In this document: positions 17,797-60,560 of the stretch, one piece after another
How the letters are laid out: each line of letters opens with the position of its first letter
Numbering within the stretch: the first letter of the stretch is position 1
Source: Polycladomyces zharkentensis
GTDB lineage: Bacteria > Bacillota > Bacilli > Thermoactinomycetales > JIR-001
DNA length: 64,000 nt
Assembly: GCF_016938855.1 (NCBI RefSeq)
Contig: NZ_JAFHAP010000001.1
Coordinates: 119,501-183,500 of the forward strand
Reading direction: 5' to 3'
Translations under genes and position numbers: made by a program
The notes under the pieces: model-generated
Databases searched by the model: none
Seen by the model: only the letters and a program-made list of their open reading frames with translations
What the model was told of the DNA's origin: nothing

Positions 17797-18026
17797 GCGT
17801 GTCTGATGAATGCTGTACAATTGCTTCCCCGGTTCGCTCCACCTGCGCCCTGCAAGGAAGCAGGTCATGGCCGCTTGAGACCCGAAGCGCAGGACGCGGG
17901 CAAGCTTCGCTTAGAGGAAGTTGCCCGCGATTTCATTCCTGCGCCTTTCGGGTCTTCGCTCGGCCGGGCTTGGTAAGTCGCTCACCAGGGATAGCATTTG
18001 CTCTCTTACGGATATATCAGACACGC
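17797..18026 (+). repeat. Repeat family B, copy 2 (best-preserved, 230 bp)
   Basis: It has perfect 11-bp terminal inverted repeats (GCGTGTCTGAT at 17797-17807, ATCAGACACGC at 18016-18026). A long interrupted hairpin lies inside: 17879-17886 with 17947-17954, 17887-17894 with 17937-17944, and 17895-17903 with 17921-17929. It holds no coding sequence and divides the polysaccharide operon between the third GT4 gene and the 3-dehydrogenase. No target-site duplication is obvious. Confidence 0.8.
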
Positions 18027-18062
18027 CCCAGACCCGGGAAAACCGTTCTTGGCTTCCGCTGA

Positions 18063-30931: not shown

Positions 30932-32440
30932 TCAGGGTCCCGGAGGTGCCTGTGGAACCGACAGAACTTCCACCCATTTCAGTTGTCCCAATGCATGGAG
31001 CACCGCATTCGGGAACAATCCCAATCCCACAGTGCCGATCACACCAATTCCAATTACAATGGCCGTACCGATGGGGATGGCCAGCGGATTCCCCTTCGGT
31101 GCGGGACGGAAGTACATCTGTCGGATAAACTCGAAATAGTAGAAATAGGAAACGACCGTGGTTACCACCATCACCGCTGCGATCCAAAAGTGCTGGGTTG
31201 CGATGGCGTTGATCAGGAGGTAGAATTTACCGAAAAATCCAGCCGTGACCGGAATGCCCGCCAGCGACAGCACCAACAGGGTCATGGTAAGCGCGACCAG
31301 CGGCGATCTCCTGTATAATCCGGCAAAAGCACTGAATTCACCGTGTTCGGCATCGCGCTCCACCACCATGATCACCGCGAATACGCCGACAGTCATCAGC
31401 AGGTAGGCAAGCAGGTAAAACAGGGTGCTCTCAAAGAGCGTCATCCCCAGCGAAGCGAGCGGCACCAGCACATATCCGGCCTGGGCGATACCGGAATACG
31501 CCATCAGCCGTTTGACATTGGTCTGACGCAATGCGACGGCATTGCCGACGATCATGGATGCCCCCGCGATCACCAGCAACAACGGCGTAATGATCTCCTC
31601 CCACACGCGCAGCTGGATCAACTGAAGGTAAACCACCAACACAACCCGGGTCACCAAAGCAAATGCTGCCGTTTTGGATACAACCGCCAAAAATGCAGTA
31701 ACCGACGTGGGGGAACCCTGATACACGTCAGGTGCCCACATGTGAAACGGTGCAGCGGCGATTTTAAACCCGAATCCCAACATCATCAAAAACAGCGACA
31801 GCAACACGAACGGTGCGTAACCGGTTTGGTATGCCTCCACGATCCGCTGCTGGACGACAAACAAATTGGTGCTGCCCGTCAGCCCGTACACGAATGACAT
31901 CCCGTACAGGATGAACGCGGAGGAGACGCCACCCAAGACGACATATTTCCAAGCGGCCTCATTGGCGTCTGTCCGCTGTTTGCGGATCCCCGCCAGGATG
32001 TAGGAGGAGATGCTCAACAGCTCCAACCCGACAAACAGCGTAACCAAATCAGCCGAGGATGTCATCACTGAAGCACCCAACACGGCCGCAAGCAGCAGAA
32101 AGTAATATTCTCCCCGCGCCCTGATCCCTTCCCGATTTCCTCCGGAGAGGGAGAGCAGCAAAATCAGAGCCGTCCCGCCCAGCAACACCAGTTTGAACGA
32201 TTGGGCCACCGGGTCCGTACGGTATGATCCCTGCAGAAGATCCACCGTCGCCGCTCCGAAGTGGACGGCCACGTACGTCCCCGCCCCGACGACGGCCAAC
32301 AGGGCCAACCACCCCAGCCAGTCGCGGGAAGTCTCATCCGGTAACAACAGCTCCAGCACGATCAGCAGGGCGGCGGCGGTGACGAGGATCAACTCGGGTG
32401 TCATCGCCGACCAGTCGATGTGTGCCAAGGCTTTTTCCAT
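30932..32440 (-). CDS. nuoN: NADH-quinone oxidoreductase subunit N
   Basis: A 502-residue proton-pumping membrane subunit of complex I, with about 14 spans. The antiporter-like core motif is FHMWAPDVYQGSPTSVTAFL, and conserved lysines sit in VVSKTAAFA and nearby segments. The N-terminal spans (LVTLFVGLELLSISSYILAG) contain the conserved Glu (GLEL). It is the last gene of the nuo operon, 6 bases after nuoM, and is followed by a hairpin. Confidence 0.95.
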   Translation of the reverse strand: MEKALAHIDWSAMTPELILVTAAALLIVLELLLPDETSRDWLGWLALLAVVGAGTYVAVHFGAATVDLLQGSYRTDPVAQSFKLVLLGGTALILLLSLSGGNREGIRARGEYYFLLLAAVLGASVMTSSADLVTLFVGLELLSISSYILAGIRKQRTDANEAAWKYVVLGGVSSAFILYGMSFVYGLTGSTNLFVVQQRIVEAYQTGYAPFVLLSLFLMMLGFGFKIAAAPFHMWAPDVYQGSPTSVTAFLAVVSKTAAFALVTRVVLVVYLQLIQLRVWEEIITPLLLVIAGASMIVGNAVALRQTNVKRLMAYSGIAQAGYVLVPLASLGMTLFESTLFYLLAYLLMTVGVFAVIMVVERDAEHGEFSAFAGLYRRSPLVALTMTLLVLSLAGIPVTAGFFGKFYLLINAIATQHFWIAAVMVVTTVVSYFYYFEFIRQMYFRPAPKGNPLAIPIGTAIVIGIGVIGTVGLGLFPNAVLHALGQLKWVEVLSVPQAPPGP

Positions 32441-32446
32441 ATCCGC

Positions 32447-33963
32447 TCACCCTCCGATCCTGGTGACGATCATTTGCAGGGTGGTTTGCATCGGCTCGCC
32501 CAACATCTGCGGATAGACGCCGATCGCGATGATCAGGCCGAGCAACACCAACATCGGCACGGTTTCCACTGCCTTCGTATCGGTCAGGCGCTCCCAGCGG
32601 TCCAGGAAAGGTCCGAACGTGGCAGCCATGACCGCCCGCAACGTATAGGCGGCGGCCAAGATCAAACCCAATGCGCCGATGCCCGCAATGACCGGGTATT
32701 GTTTGAACATGCCGAGAAACGCCAAAAATTCGCTGACGAAACCGGACATACCGGGCAACCCCAGCAACGCCAGACCTCCCGCCAACAACACGCCGGAGAG
32801 AACCGGCATCGCCTTGGCCAATCCGCTCATTTCATCGATCATCGTCGTTCCCGTCCGTTCATAGAGCACAGCGATGATCAAAAACATCAGCGCGGAGATG
32901 AAACCGTGAGATACCGCTTGAAACACGGCTCCCTGCAATCCTGAAAAATTGAGCGCGGCGATTCCGAACAGGATGATCCCCATGTGGCTGACACTGGAAT
33001 AGGCCAACACGCGCTTCAAATCACGCTGAACAAATGCCAGCGCCGCACCGTAGAGGATGTTGACCAGCCCCAGCACCGCCAAAAACGTCGCCATTTGCTG
33101 CACCAAGGGAGGAAACAGATCCACGCCGAACCGGATCAACCCGTACGCACCCATTTTCAATAAAACACCGGAGTGGATCATCACCACTGCCGGGGGCGCT
33201 TCCACATGGACACGCAACATCCAGGTATGAAACGGGAACGCGGGCAGCTTGATGCCGAATGCAATCAAAATGCAGAGGAAAATACCCCATATCACCTGTC
33301 TGAGCGGCCCCTGCATCCATTCGGGGTCAGCGAACAGCTGCGAGGTTCGAACCAGCAACTGATCCAGGTTCAGCGTGCCAAACACCAACAAGAGACCGCC
33401 AAACGCAAGCAACATCAATGCTGAACCCAATCCGTTATACAGCAGGAACTGGTTGGCGGCTCGCTCTCTTTCCATGTACCCCCAGATGCCCACCAGGAAA
33501 TAGGTGGCCACCAGCGTCACCTCAAAGAAGAGGAAAAACAGAAACAGGTCGCGGGCGAGAAAGACACCGAGCATCGCCGTTTCCAACAGAAGAAACAGCA
33601 GGAAGTAACTTTTCACCCGTTCCTTGATGTACATCGATCCGACTGCGGCCAGCGCCGCGATGATCGTCGTCATCAGGACGAGTGGCAAGGACAAACCATC
33701 CGCACCCATGGCATAAGACAGCTTCCATCCCGGACTTTGCGGGATCGGGATGTGAATCCATGACACGTGTTGTGCAAATTGCACACCCCGGGATTGGGGG
33801 TCAAACAGCACGAACATCGTAATGGCCAGTATCAACGGAGGCAAGGTTCCCGCCATCCCGACCCATTTCAGCCACCGGTTCCGTTGCCGGGGAATGAACA
33901 ACAAGACCAGCATGCCCAAAATCGGCGAAAATGTCACCCATGTAGGAAGCCCATTCCACACCG

Positions 33964-33967
<4 letters not shown>
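32447..33967 (-). CDS. nuoM: NADH-quinone oxidoreductase subunit M
   Basis: A 506-residue antiporter-like complex I subunit with about 14 spans. The conserved FFEVTLVATYFLVG (Glu) and the firmicute-type HTWMLRVHVEAPPAVVMIHS segment with GVLLKMGAYG (Lys) identify NuoM. Its ATG overlaps the stop of nuoL, and nuoN follows. It moves protons together with NuoL and NuoN. Confidence 0.95.
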
Positions 33968-35826
<1,859 letters not shown>

Positions 35827-35860: not shown

Positions 35861-36166
35861 CTATCCTTTCATCGAATTGATCTTGTCGGCCTCAGTCGTG
35901 GCTTTGTTCCGGTAGAGCGCGATCAGGATCGCGATTCCCACCGCCGCCTCCGCCGCCGCCACCGTAATCGTGAACAGCGAAAAAATGTGACCGGTCAAGT
36001 TGGCATACAATCCGTACTTGGAGAAAGCGACCAAATTGACGTTGACAGCGTTCAGCATCAATTCGATGGAAAACAGCACCATCACCGCATTCCGCTTCGT
36101 CAGCACCCCGTACAAACCGATGCAGAAGAGGATGGCCGACAATGCCAGATACGAAGTGACCGGCAT
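35861..36166 (-). CDS. nuoK: NADH-quinone oxidoreductase subunit K
   Basis: A 101-residue membrane subunit with three spans. The two conserved buried glutamates of NuoK are visible in [12 protein letters not shown] and [14 protein letters not shown]. The start codon overlaps the nuoJ stop. It links the quinone module to the antiporter subunits. Confidence 0.95.
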
Positions 36167-36672
36167 CAGGATTCCTCCTTCCGGGCCAGGACGACCGCCC
36201 CCACCAGTGCAGCCAACAGCAGCACCGACACCAGCTCAAACGGGATCACCTGCTGTTGAAACAACACATGACCGATGCGTTCCACCGTATAACCGGACGT
36301 ATCCGCCGTTTTCGCCGGAAGGGGCGTCCGGTAGATCACCCACATCACGATGCCGAAAAACGCCGCCACCCCTGCAAAAGAGAGTCCCTGCCGCAATCCG
36401 AACGGTTCGGCTTCCCCTTCATCCTGATGACGGGTCAACATGATCATGAACAGCATCAGGATGGTGATCGCTCCGGCATAGATCAACACTTGCACGACCG
36501 CCAGAAACTCCGCGTTCAACAGCAGATACAACCCGGCAATGCTGAAAAACGTGAACGCCAGGGCCAACGCCATATGAACCACTTTCGTCAGGTTGATCAT
36601 GAACACGGCACCGCCGATCGCCATGACGGACAAGATGAAAAACGCGACAAACTCTCCGGTCAGCTGTACCAA
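36166..36672 (-). CDS. nuoJ: NADH-quinone oxidoreductase subunit J
   Basis: A 168-residue membrane subunit with five spans; [21 protein letters not shown] is the typical NuoJ segment. The start is TTG at 36672, with GGAGGG 6 bases upstream and only a few bases after the nuoI stop. Stop and start of nuoJ/nuoK overlap. Confidence 0.94.
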
Positions 36673-37086
36673 TTACGACCCTCCCCGGATGTTCTGATCG
36701 TTTTCATGGAGCCACTCCAGATTTTTGAACAGTTCGTCCCGGCTGTAGGTCGCCAGCTCATAGTTGGAGGTCATCACGATCGCCTCGGTAGGGCACACCT
36801 CCGTGCACAAATCGCACAAAATGCAAATTTCGAAGTTGATGTCGTAGGTGTCTATGATTTTTCCCTTTTTGTTGGGATCGGGATGTTTTTTGCCCGTCAG
36901 GGTGATGCAATCGGTCGGGCAGATGCGTGCACACTGGTTGCACACGATGCACTTCTCCGGGTCGAAGTGCTGGATGCCCCGAAATCGCTCCGGCATCTTC
37001 AGCGGTCGATCCGGATATTGATAGGTCACCTTTTTCTTGGTCATGGTTTTCAGTGTGATGCCCAAACCTTTTATCATCCCAAGCAT
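36673..37086 (-). CDS. nuoI: NADH-quinone oxidoreductase subunit I (two 4Fe-4S clusters)
   Basis: A 137-residue ferredoxin-like subunit. Two CxxCxxCxxxCP motifs (CIVCNQCARICP and CILCDLCTEVCP) bind clusters N6a and N6b, which pass electrons towards NuoB. GGGAGGG lies before the ATG at 37086. Gene order nuoH-nuoI-nuoJ is normal. The N-terminal GMIKGLGITLKTM segment is the usual membrane-surface helix. Confidence 0.96.
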   Translation of the reverse strand: MLGMIKGLGITLKTMTKKKVTYQYPDRPLKMPERFRGIQHFDPEKCIVCNQCARICPTDCITLTGKKHPDPNKKGKIIDTYDINFEICILCDLCTEVCPTEAIVMTSNYELATYSRDELFKNLEWLHENDQNIRGGS

Positions 37087-37107
37087 GGGAATCCCTCCCA
37101 AGTCACG

Positions 37108-38082
37108 TCAATAAAACCGGCCGATGAACGGCACTTCCCTCAGCAGAGCGGACAGGAAAATGTTGAGGAGCGCCAGTGGAAGGAGCACCTTCCATCCCAA
37201 CTGCATCAACTGATCCATCCGCACCCGTGGAAAGGTCGCCCTCAGCCAAAACAGGAAAAAGACGACGATGACAAATTTGATGACAAACCAGACGATCGGC
37301 GGGATGAACGTCAGACCGAAAACAGGGTTCCATCCGCCCAGAAACAGGACTGTCGTCAATGCAGACATTGCGAATACATACACATATTCGGCCAACATGA
37401 AAAAAGCGAAACGAAATCCGCTGTATTCCACATGATAACCCGCCACCAGTTCCGATTCGGCTTCCGGCAAATCGAACGGTGTACGGTTCAGTTCGGATAC
37501 GGAAGCGACGAGAAAGACCAGAAAGCCCAAAAATTGCGGCACGATAAACCACATGTCCGCTTGCGCAGCGACGATCTCTTTCAGGTTGAGTGATCCCGCG
37601 GCCATGATCACACCGACCACCGACATGACCAAGGGAATTTCGTAACTGATCATCTGGGCCGCCGAGCGCATGCCGCCCAACAGGGCATATTTGTTGTTGG
37701 ACGACCATCCCCCGACCATGACGGCAATGGTGGTGATGCTGGAAACTGCCATATAGTACAGCAGCCCCACGGCGATGTCGGAAAAGACCAATGACGGTGT
37801 GAACGGAATCACCGCCACGACGGCGAACGCCGGCATAAACGCGAGAATCGGGGCCGCCTTGAACAGCGTGTGATCCGCTTTGTGCGGGACGGTGTCCTCC
37901 TTGAACAACATTTTCAGTACATCAGCCACCGTTTGCAGGATTCCCCACGGCCCGACGCGGTTGGGGCCGACACGACTCTGCATCCACCCGATCACTTTGC
38001 GCTCAAACAATACGGCCATCGTGACGAACCCCAACAGGATGAACAGCATGACGACGGCCCCGATGGTTTTCCCTATCTCCAT
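37108..38082 (-). CDS. nuoH: NADH-quinone oxidoreductase subunit H
   Basis: A 324-residue membrane subunit with eight spans that forms part of the quinone pocket. The motifs GPNRVGPWGILQTVADVLK, PEAESELVAGYHVEYSG and FFLFWLRATFPRVRMDQLM are classic. The ATG at 38082 follows GGAGGTGGAGAGG. Upstream, where nuoD should be, lies repeat B copy 3, so nuoH now follows nuoC across a 388-base non-coding gap. Confidence 0.96.
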   Translation of the reverse strand: MEIGKTIGAVVMLFILLGFVTMAVLFERKVIGWMQSRVGPNRVGPWGILQTVADVLKMLFKEDTVPHKADHTLFKAAPILAFMPAFAVVAVIPFTPSLVFSDIAVGLLYYMAVSSITTIAVMVGGWSSNNKYALLGGMRSAAQMISYEIPLVMSVVGVIMAAGSLNLKEIVAAQADMWFIVPQFLGFLVFLVASVSELNRTPFDLPEAESELVAGYHVEYSGFRFAFFMLAEYVYVFAMSALTTVLFLGGWNPVFGLTFIPPIVWFVIKFVIVVFFLFWLRATFPRVRMDQLMQLGWKVLLPLALLNIFLSALLREVPFIGRFY

Positions 38083-38172
38083 CCGCCTCTCCACCTCCTG
38101 GAAACGAGCCAAACTTCGTCGGAATCAGCGATCCTTCTCTCAGTTGGATGATGACCAGACACATACTTCGGG

Positions 38173-38410
38173 GGTGTCTGATCCGGATGACGTGCATCCT
38201 GTTCCCGGCTCGCATCACCTGCGTTCTCTCCGGAAGCAGAAACTTGTACGCTTGCAACCGGGGATGCAGGACGCAGGCAACGTACGCTTTGCTCAGAGAA
38301 AGTTGCCTGCCATTGTTGGATCCTCTCGTTTTTCCGGTTCTCCGCCGGGTCGGGGTGGAGCAAGTCGCTCATCCGGGTAAACCCTGCCTCTGACGGAATG
38401 GCCGGACACT
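38173..38410 (+). repeat. Repeat family B, copy 3, at the nuoD position
   Basis: Terminus GGTGTCTGAT at 38173-38182 and a diverged right end bound an element that keeps the family stem. AACCGG (38256-38261) pairs with CCGGTT (38334-38339). GCAGGCAA with a flanking C pairs with GTTGCCTGC (38302-38310). It fills most of the gap between nuoC and nuoH. No piece of nuoD is recognisable on either side. Confidence 0.7.
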
Positions 38411-38470
38411 CACTCCCGCCGCGAGCGGAATCTTCTTTTCCCAAGTATGCCGTTCCTGTCGGTTTCCCAA

Positions 38471-39250
38471 TCAAATCTCCGGATCGAGTGGCTCATAATC
38501 TTTCCGAAGGGGATGGCCCTCCCAGTGTTCGGGCAAGAAGATGCGCTTCAGATTGGGATGTCCGTCGAAACGGATTCCCAACAAATCGTACACCTCACGT
38601 TCGTTCCAATCGGCCCCGATCCACACGGAGGTCACCGAATCGACCCGCGCTTCGTCACGGTCCGTTTTCACCCGGACACAGAGGGAATGACGATGCCGGA
38701 ACGAGTAGAGATGATAGACCACTTCCATGTGGGTCTCATAATCAACGCCCGACAGATTTTGCAAGTAGTCAAAGGCGAGCGAATCGTCCTCTTTTAACAG
38801 ACGGGCCACCTCAAGCCATTTCTCCTTTGCAACCACGATCGTGGGCAAATGATGATTGGGCCGATTGATCATGGCTTCTTCCACCGCATCATCCCCTGCT
38901 TGTTTCCGGATGGTGTCGACAAACGCATCCAATACGGGTTGTTTGGGTGAAGTTTCCAATGGCTTCTTTTTCTCTTCCGCTTTTCGGGCCGCCGGATTCC
39001 GCCCCGCCCCCACCGGTTTGGCTCTGGCCGCGGCTGCCGCTTTCGCGCGGGCGGCTGCTGCGGCTTTCCGCTTGGCATCCGCATCAGCGGCATTTGCGGT
39101 TGTATCCTTCACTTGATCGTTTTTCACGGTTTTCTCGTTTGATTCCGTTCGGTGTGTCTTCGGGGATTCCCGATCGACTTCACCACCCTTTTGGTCATCG
39201 GAGTCGCTGGCGGAGGCTGGATGGTTTTTTCCTCGCTCTTCCTTGTCCAT
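38471..39250 (-). CDS. nuoC: NADH-quinone oxidoreductase subunit C with charged Ala/Lys-rich extension
   Basis: A 259-residue protein. The C-terminal ~150 residues are the 30-kDa subunit domain (YLQNLSGVDYETHMEVVYHL, then WNEREVYDLLGIRFDGHPNL and LPEHWEGHPLRKDY). In front is a ~100-residue low-complexity region, acidic at first, then with AAAAARAK repeats, that is absent from standard NuoC (about 150-200 residues). It starts at ATG 39250 (or GTG 39253), overlapping the nuoB stop. nuoD, normally the next gene or fused here, is missing. Confidence 0.92.
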   Translation of the reverse strand: MDKEERGKNHPASASDSDDQKGGEVDRESPKTHRTESNEKTVKNDQVKDTTANAADADAKRKAAAAARAKAAAAARAKPVGAGRNPAARKAEEKKKPLETSPKQPVLDAFVDTIRKQAGDDAVEEAMINRPNHHLPTIVVAKEKWLEVARLLKEDDSLAFDYLQNLSGVDYETHMEVVYHLYSFRHRHSLCVRVKTDRDEARVDSVTSVWIGADWNEREVYDLLGIRFDGHPNLKRIFLPEHWEGHPLRKDYEPLDPEI

Positions 39251-39768
39251 CACTGGTGGGTGACCCTCCTCCCGGTCTTCGCTTCATATCGGATTTTTTC
39301 CTGAAGTTTGTTGATCCCGTAAATCAATGCTGCGGGATTGGGCGGACAACCAGGGATGTAAACGTCGACCGGGACGATCTGGTCAACGCCCTTCACCACC
39401 GAATACGATTTCACATACGGGCCGCCGGCCGTGGCACAGGAACCCATGGCGATCACCCATTTGGGTTCCGGCATCTGATCGTACAATCGTCGAAGCAAAG
39501 GCCCCATCTTTTTGGTGACGGTACCAGCGACGATCATCAAATCAGCCTGTCGGGGAGAAGCACGGAACATCACGCCGAAGCGGTCCAAATCATAATGGGA
39601 ACCGCCCGTCCCCATCATTTCGATGGCACAACAGGCCAAGCCAAAGGTCAACGGCCAAAGCGAGTTGCTGCGGGCCCACCCTTTGACCTGCTCCAATGTG
39701 GTGGTCAACACGTTGCGCTCCAGTTCCTTTTTCTCCTCCGGCAACAATCCTTCCAGATTTATTTCCAT
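39250..39768 (-). CDS. nuoB: NADH-quinone oxidoreductase subunit B
   Basis: A 172-residue subunit holding the terminal 4Fe-4S cluster N2. The ligand cysteines are in [21 protein letters not shown] and IPGCPPNP. The ATG at 39768 lies inside the end of nuoA, with AAGGTG upstream. It is followed by nuoC with overlapping stop and start codons. Confidence 0.96.
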
Positions 39769-40133
39769 TCCAACACCTTCTTTTTCCAGGCGTAGCATAA
39801 TCCGACCAACAACAACAGCACAAACACGAGCATTTCCACCAGCGTGAACAATCCGACGCCGGATCGAAGCTCGTGATACACCGTCGCCCAAGGGTAGAGA
39901 AAAATCGTCTCCACATCAAAGACGACGAAAAGCAGCGCGAACAGGTAATATCGCACATTGAACTGAATCCAACTGTCTCCCACCGGATCGGCTCCGCTTT
40001 CATAACTGATCCCTTTTGCGGGAGTCGGTTTCCGGGGGCGAAGAAGGCTTCCCGCCGTAAACGCGACAAGCGGAAGTCCCAACCCGAGCAAAAAGAATAC
40101 GGCAAGCATGACGTAATTGGCGGAATAGCCCAT
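39759..40133 (-). CDS. nuoA: NADH-quinone oxidoreductase subunit A
   Basis: A 124-residue three-span subunit, first gene of the operon. [20 protein letters not shown] and [12 protein letters not shown] are the standard NuoA motifs. The start ATG at 40133 follows GGAGGG; longer in-frame starts exist but lack a binding site. It overlaps nuoB by 10 bases. The operon has no nuoE, nuoF or nuoG, so the complex would lack the NADH-oxidising module. Confidence 0.94.
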
Positions 40134-40363: not shown

Positions 40364-40392
40364 ATTATAGCAGAATGATTCAAAAGTGTCTA
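40364..40392 (-). promoter_or_regulatory. Sigma-A-type promoter of the nuo operon
   Basis: Minus-strand TAGACA (40392-40387; 5 of 6), a 17-base spacer and a perfect TATAAT (40369-40364). It predicts an untranslated leader of about 220 bases before nuoA. Confidence 0.7.
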
Positions 40393-42163: not shown

Positions 42164-42375
42164 CAAGGTGTGTCTCTGGTCATTCCTTGAAGGGGCAATG
42201 TTTTCCCAAGTGCGCGACGATCCGAGCCCGTCCAAGCAGGGGAACCGAAAGTGCAGAAACCGAATCTGCGGGCAATCTCCGTTATGCCAAGCGCAACTGG
42301 CCCGCGTCTCGGATTCCAATCGACCGCGATCCTGCTTCCCGATCGTCCCGAAAAGCGGTGCAAACATCCGACACG
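42164..42375 (-). repeat. Repeat family B, copy 8 (reverse orientation)
   Basis: From GGTGTGTCTCTGGTCATTCC to ATCCGACACG the sequence follows the reverse complement of copy 2 (TGCGGGCAATC, CTGGCCCGCGTC, GACCGCGATCCTGCTTCCC). It is diverged. It abuts the partial structured-RNA element on its right. Confidence 0.55.
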
Positions 42376-50089: not shown

Positions 50090-50286
50090 CCAATATGAGA
50101 TGTCGATAGTCGAAGCGAACCGTCGTTTTCGCACATCCATCTGCCCTGCAAGGAAGCAGATCCAGGTCGCTTTGTAACGGGGGGCGCGGGGTGCGAGCAA
50201 AGTACGCTTCATTCCCGCGCTTTTCCGGTTCTCCGCTCAATGGGCTTAAAAACCGACTTGTCAGGAAAACGGTGCGGCTTGATGAA
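50090..50286 (+). repeat. Repeat family B, copy 5 (partial)
   Basis: Contains CTGCCCTGCAAGGAAGCAG, GCAAAGTACGCTTC and CGCTTTTCCGGTTCTCCGCTC, matching parts of other B copies, but the termini are not clear. It stands directly before copy 4 in the same orientation, so the two form a tandem pair. Confidence 0.55.
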
Positions 50287-50289
50287 TGA

Positions 50290-50495
50290 CCAGACGCGCT
50301 CACTGTCCCATTGCTTTCCCGGCTCACTCCACCTGTGCCCTGCAAGGAAGCAGGCCATGACCGCTCCGACCCGGAGCGCGGGACGCGGCAAAGTACGCTT
50401 CGCTTTGAGGCGGTCCGCGATTTCCATCCTGCGCTTTCCGGGTCTTCGCTCGCCTGGGTAACCATTTGCTCCCTTACGGATTTACCAGACACGCC
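50290..50495 (+). repeat. Repeat family B, copy 4
   Basis: Shares with copy 2 the block CTGCAAGGAAGCAGG-CATG-CCGCT and the right end ACCAGACACGCC. The stem is kept: GACCCGGA (50368-50375) with TCCGGGTC (50437-50444). In copy 2 the same positions read GACCCGAA and TTCGGGTC, an A-T to G-C exchange on both arms. Confidence 0.75.
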
Positions 50496-50651
50496 CTAGC
50501 CCGCGTTTTCACTCATGGTCCGTTCCTCCGCTTTGTCGGCTCCTAAAAGCCGCTCAACCGGAAAAACATCTCCCCCTGCATAATCATCATTGCGATCAGA
50601 TTTCATTCCGGGCTTCTCCCTACCATCCGTTTGTTAACCGCATTCTTTCTT

Positions 50652-60228: not shown

Positions 60229-60368
60229 CTGAAAAAATCGGTTGTGCCGTTTTCCTCTCGCTCCTTTTTCGACAAGCACAGGTTACTCGCGGGAAAACGC
60301 CTACCCTCTGTCAGAGGAACGGACCGAATTTCCCTCGAGCAACTCCGAAGCGCATCTGGTGAATACTG
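60229..60368 (+). repeat. Repeat family A, copy 4
   Basis: GTTTTCCTCTCGCTCCTTTTTCG, then CGCGGGAAAACGCC-ACCCTCTGTCAG, then GAATTTCCCTCG and a tail GAATACTGA like the AATACT tail of copy 3. It adjoins B copy 7. Confidence 0.65.
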
Positions 60369-60560
60369 ACCTCCTTGCTTTTCCGGCTCGCTCCACCTGC
60401 TGCAAGGAAACCAATGATGACCGCTTTGACCCGGTCAGCGCAGGACGCGGGCAAAAAGCGCTTCGCTTTGGGAAAATCGCCCGCGATTTCAATCCTGCGT
60501 TTCCCGAGTCCCGCTTACCTGAATAAGCATCGCTCCCTTGCGGAACAGCCAACACGCCCC
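60369..60560 (+). repeat. Repeat family B, copy 7
   Basis: CTTTTCCGGCTCGCTCCACCTG, the stem CGCAGGACGCGGGC with GCCCGCG and TCCTGCG, and the right end CCAACACGCCCC. With the preceding A copy it fills the prmC-prfA gap; 60561-60755 holds no recognisable gene. Confidence 0.7.

Follow-up and report, generated by a model that had tools for sequence, protein, structure and literature searches.

A nuoD gene outside the complex I operon of Polycladomyces zharkentensis and related Thermoactinomycetales

The product of nuoD forms the quinone site of complex I together with NuoB and NuoH. In Bacilli the gene almost always stands between nuoC and nuoH; in the organisms described here it has been separated from that position over a time span as old as several families. 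Gene order is reportedly not essential for assembly of the complex, a finding ascribed to Oppermann et al. 2022, whose study concerns an artificial rearrangement of the nuo operon in E. coli. An 11-subunit operon of the type nuoABCDHIJKLMN, without adjacent nuoEFG, is described for Desulfitobacterium among the Bacillota (PMC11238625). In cyanobacterial NDH-1 the NuoD counterpart is encoded by ndhH, which is located apart from the ndhCKJ and ndhAIGE clusters, for instance in Synechococcus sp. CS-601 (PMC6337551).

The nuo operon of Polycladomyces zharkentensis is located on the minus strand of the stretch of DNA that was analysed (the window, 64,000 nucleotides), where it runs from 40133 to 30932 in the order A-B-C-(388 bp)-H-I-J-K-L-M-N (Table 1). 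The preliminary description had read the same order and noted the absence of nuoD, which is borne out by open reading frames and profile searches; relative to the contiguous set nuoA-B-C-D-H-I-J-K-L-M-N, only D is absent from its place between nuoC and nuoH and all other genes are contiguous. NuoA, NuoB, NuoC, NuoH and NuoI were named by profile searches, and J, K, L, M and N were assigned from position and length, in the case of J and K also from matches in relatives. NuoC carries an Ala/Lys-rich N-terminal extension as in other Bacillota NuoC proteins and has a normal end, which rules out a nuoCD fusion, and there is no nuoEFG module within the operon. A SAM riboswitch (RF00162, 92.7 bits) is found elsewhere in the window at 1832-1945 on the minus strand.

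Table 1. Coordinates of the nuo operon, the nuoC-nuoH gap and the repeat copies in the window
Feature	Position	Strand	Basis
nuoA	39759..40133	-	NCBIfam NF005839
nuoB	39250..39768	-	NCBIfam NF005012
nuoC	38471..39253	-	NCBIfam NF005832, TIGR01961
nuoC-nuoH intergenic region (place of nuoD in in-operon relatives)	38083..38470	.	sequence, ORF list, relatives
nuoH	37108..38082	-	NCBIfam NF004741
nuoI	36673..37101	-	NCBIfam NF004540
nuoJ	36166..36672	-	ORF and matches in every operon compared
nuoK	35861..36166	-	ORF and matches in every operon compared
nuoL	33964..35826	-	ORF, position, length
nuoM	32447..33967	-	ORF, position, length
nuoN	30932..32440	-	ORF, position, length
Promoter-like site TAGACA-17-TATAAT, extended -10, upstream of nuoA	40364..40392	-	consensus match only
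MITE-like repeat copy, ~240 bp, inside the gap	about 38172-38415 (38202-38409 in the list of family copies)	+	BLAST, absent from orthologous gap of G001, G002; ends approximate
Other copies of the MITE-like family	17799-18028, 42172-42308, 50143-50238, 50304-50496, 60355-60510		

The gap of 388 bases at 38083-38470 had been delimited exactly, since on the minus strand the last base of nuoC is 38471 and the first base of nuoH is 38082. It had been called non-coding with an intact ribosome binding site for nuoH, and both statements hold: the listed open reading frames, judged as a group, coincide in part with the repeat and lack conservation in two sister species, and nuoH is preceded by a strong Shine-Dalgarno sequence, AGGAGGTGG, as read from the sequence. 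Neither a terminator-like nor a promoter-like site was called when the gap was scanned, and it is plausible that transcription reads through it into nuoH. When the nuoC-nuoH gaps of this genome and of 11 relatives with a displaced nuoD were examined by tblastn, no NuoD fragment was detectable. Matches below an E of 1 do not exceed chance level, being short and inconsistent; the best of them (E 0.006) comes from another genome and extends over the beginning of nuoH, and a remnant or pseudogene of nuoD in the gap is thus rejected for all 12 genomes.

When all 22 contigs of the genome, which is 99.8% complete, were searched for nuoD, as the preliminary description had proposed, they yielded one gene above the cut-off of the PF00346 profile, located at C4:249677-250774. 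It encodes 366 amino acids, is intact and free of stops, and matches the NuoD equivalog NCBIfam NF008974 over residues 1-366 of 366 with 675 bits (cut-off 522), and PF00346 with 328 bits (cut-off 24). The candidate for a second nuoD, a weak PF00346 match on contig C21 (E 0.14, 11.7 bits), is below the cut-off and was rejected. Residues H19, Y68 and D120 of the C4 protein are invariant in the NuoD alignment A1, with a spacing of 49 and 52, and from this spacing we take them to be H38, Y87 and D139 of the quinone site of Thermus Nqo4. All 11 complex I subunits are therefore present in the genome, with A, B, C and H-N in the window and D on C4. By predicted gene content no complex I subunit is missing, and the gap in the operon is not a lost gene; a move elsewhere comes closest among the three options that had been considered for nuoD. 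For annotation this serves as a warning that a gap in an operon need not mean a lost subunit.

Another of those options, that an assembly collapse at the repeat concealed a nuoD inside the operon, would draw on the ability of repeats to break assemblies and on the 22 contigs of the genome, but it is hardly credible. The junction is located inside a large contig, an intact nuoD has already been found elsewhere (on C4), and the repeat copies, which differ by 20-30%, are too divergent to collapse. For the sister species P. abyssicola JIR-001 (G001), nanopore reads were combined with Illumina reads in the assembly (PMC8210696). Its genome consists of one circular chromosome of 3,197,230 bp and shows the same split, nuoD being located at 2.124 Mb and nuoH at 3.036 Mb. 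The genus is represented by one further genome, G002, which is likewise split.

The C4 nuoD has an isochorismatase-family gene as its upstream neighbour and is followed by genes for a class II aldolase and a PfkB-type kinase and then by a DedA/uptA-like gene. The aldolase and kinase genes (L004:4837-6647) occupy this place between nuoD and the uptA-like gene in Polycladomyces only, among the genomes compared, and they may be co-transcribed with the displaced nuoD. A scan upstream of this nuoD found no consensus promoter above chance. Two copies of the repeat family are located nearby, at L004:4614-4837, 2 kb from nuoD, and at L004:12463-12697, and one of the two lies directly against the stop codon of the PfkB-type gene, where it could serve to end transcripts.

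The repeat had been said to fill most of the gap, and it does cover roughly 240 of the 388 bp. Its copy in the gap has the terminal inverted repeats GGGGGTGTCTGAT and GCCGGACACTCAC, the latter matching with a shift of 3. By BLAST, 34 further matches to the gap sequence are present in the same genome. The family, which is non-coding and dispersed in dozens of copies on many contigs, has a consensus of 241 bp with terminal inverted repeats of ~13 bp, GGGYGTGTCTGGT...ACCAGACACGCCC. Of 50 extracted copies, several of them partial, 21 have both inverted repeats, compared with 7 of 1000 shuffles; the ends have 31 matches genome-wide against 0 for a reversed control, and the RNA fold is far more stable than that of shuffles (z -5.3). 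In its size of ~240 bp, inverted ends of ~13 bp, lack of coding capacity, dispersal and strong fold the element resembles MITEs. A limited search identified no parent transposase, and no target-site duplication is evident at the copy between nuoC and nuoH.

The presence of one copy in the gap and of another 2 kb from the displaced nuoD might suggest that recombination between repeat copies removed the gene, as had been proposed. However, the gaps of G001 and G002, which are 143-166 bp in length, are free of the repeat and lack nuoD as well. The family is present in all three Polycladomyces genomes (G000, G001, G002). The gap flanks align to those of the two sisters with 88-92% identity, and the middle ~260 bp are present only in the genome of the window. 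The family is furthermore unmatched at E 1e-4 in the more distant displaced genomes G007, G011 and G023, and nuoC-nuoH junctions in other genomes go down to about 30-74 bp, too short to hold a repeat. The absence of both nuoD and the repeat from the operons of the sister species implies that the repeat inserted after nuoD had gone. It is very improbable that the repeat caused the loss, which would require that it was lost independently in both sister species.

The reading preferred here, to which we give a probability of roughly 0.85, is that complex I is complete and that an old second nuoD (D') replaced a deleted resident copy and acts, as judged from sequence, from a separate locus. Well before the genus Polycladomyces, D' would have settled between the isochorismatase-family gene and the DedA/uptA-like gene, and the resident nuoD between nuoC and nuoH would then have been cleanly deleted. 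D' would be transcribed at its own locus, either with the isochorismatase gene or from its own promoter, and its product would join NuoB, NuoC, NuoH and the other subunits in trans to form an ordinary 11-subunit complex I. D' is presumably expressed and assembled into the complex.

The distribution of the two arrangements shows that the split is not confined to one genus. Among 42 genomes of the order Thermoactinomycetales, nuoD is located inside the operon in 29 and outside, at a second site, in 13, which comprise families f1 and f6 in full, with three genomes each, and seven of the ten f3 genomes, including Kroppenstedtia guangzhouensis; one f6 genome in short contigs (G014) was scored as displaced from locus context only. 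The three remaining f3 genomes, G009, G025 and G027, have nuoD in the operon. A comparison with relatives had also been suggested in the preliminary description, which counted against its own reading any relatives that never had nuoD at this place and carry a functional copy elsewhere. Such relatives exist, the function of that copy being predicted from its sequence. Outside the order, nuoD is within 75 bp of nuoH in 97 of 97 Bacilli, counted among the matches listed for which both positions are given. Four genomes of other Bacilli families (G061, G080, G083, G111) each have two nuoD and two nuoH genes, and two complex I sets may coexist in them.

The gene order at the second site is isochorismatase-like / nuoD / DedA/uptA-like throughout the displaced genomes, with the exceptions of G015, which is without the isochorismatase-like flank, and of Polycladomyces with its two extra genes after nuoD. 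Where in-operon genomes possessing both flanking genes were examined, the empty site could be recognised: the two flanks adjoin each other without nuoD, at a distance of 27-346 bp, in G025, in G027 and in 13 f5 genomes. Each of the 42 genomes has exactly one nuoD and none has both sites occupied; a two-copy stage presumably once existed.

For the phylogenetic comparison, groups were defined by gene position and were not taken from the trees. The displaced NuoD proteins form one clade with support of 100/100 (54 rows) and 100/99 (27 rows), and monophyly of f3 is rejected by the NuoD data (AU p 6e-6). The rpoB tree and that of seven concatenated operon subunits both recover f3, in which seven genomes are displaced and three in-operon, as a single clade (100/99 or better), and a clade of the displaced hosts is rejected by both data sets (AU p 2e-5 for rpoB and 7e-5 for the operon). 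The conflict between the NuoD tree and the rpoB and operon trees means that the arrangement is not the outcome of one simple excision, and that the displaced nuoD belongs to another line of descent than the nuoD found inside the operon within the same family, and did not move independently in each genome. This constitutes a clean gene-tree conflict in a gene that is usually assumed to be vertically inherited. A clade of D' and the in-operon f3 NuoD is rejected in the 27-row set (p 0.02) and not in the 54-row set (p 0.20). The stem of D' is long and 8 of 9 diagnostic differences are changes away from the outgroup state, and faster evolution may distort its deep position, to judge from these sequences. 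Every tree leaves the branching order among families poorly resolved, the deep placement of D' varies with the set of sequences sampled, and trees of NuoC or NuoH only are too weak to choose between the f3 and the displaced groupings. A foreign donor of D' outside the order was rejected, as the NuoDs of the order group together relative to Paenibacillaceae and Bacillaceae (97/84 and 99/97, in small sets), and a class-wide search gave no closer source, the best match having 77% identity, equal to genes within the order.

A possible explanation for this patchwork, which comes close to an even chance, is that nuoD was duplicated within the order, that both copies were kept for a while, and that they were then differentially lost without any lateral transfer, the resident copy in f1, f6 and seven of the ten f3 genomes and D' in three f3 lineages. 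The uptA-like flank follows the species tree, with f3 as a clade (96/95) and a clade of displaced hosts rejected (p 0.024), relations inside the displaced clade mirror f1, f6 and f3, and a joining of the duplicate to the in-operon f3 NuoD is not firmly rejected. Extra copies can also persist, as four genomes of other Bacilli families keep two nuoD, each with two nuoH. Such a course requires 3-5 losses of the resident copy and about 2 of D', yet 0 of 42 genomes keep both.

The insertion site is identical in three families, which may instead point to D' having spread laterally from one lineage, f1, f6 or an unsampled relative, into f3 by recombination in the flanks, followed by deletion of the resident gene. 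This is a tentative alternative: the operon data do not reject the seven displaced f3 genomes as a clade (p 0.083), and the isochorismatase-like gene of f6 nests among those of displaced f3 (97/95), as if co-transferred, but the uptA-like flank shows no such signal and the f3 sequences within D' form their own clade, nested in neither f6 nor f1. The more specific proposal, that D' is a divergent nuoD lineage which passed between Thermoactinomycetales families into one fixed site and replaced the resident each time, is doubtful; if D' did pass between families, it would represent a repeated takeover of one subunit of a large essential complex.

The in-operon NuoDs of f3 form a clade (96/94) even though rpoB does not place their hosts as sisters, and they group weakly (81/78) with the NuoD of f2. 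This would fit a single move of nuoD in the ancestor of f1, f3 and f6, after which G009, G025 and G027 regained an operon copy from another member of the order. It is unlikely, as nuoD would have had to return precisely to its place next to nuoC and nuoH, probably on two occasions, the NuoH and NuoB proteins of the same three genomes still group with f3, and D' would have had to leave a site that now looks pristine.

Whichever of these histories applies, the displaced nuoD provides a modest yet well-documented case of an old operon break combined with a gene-tree conflict, and a natural test of how important operon contiguity is for building complex I. Compared with the 11-subunit operon of Bacillota, genes and order are equal except for nuoD, which is here encoded outside the operon. 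Like cyanobacterial ndhH, the gene for the 49-kDa-type subunit stands alone and its product would join the same complex. However, in cyanobacteria the whole ndh set is scattered, whereas in the present case the A-N operon is intact except for the departure of nuoD, and both the vacated place and the new site can be read in relatives. The rearranged E. coli operon was engineered, in contrast to the natural and long-lived arrangement in Polycladomyces. By analogy with ndhH and E. coli, supply of NuoD in trans would be the natural expectation. A literature search combining nuoD with Thermoactinomycetaceae found no paper, and among the open-access papers searched no report of the displaced arrangement was found.
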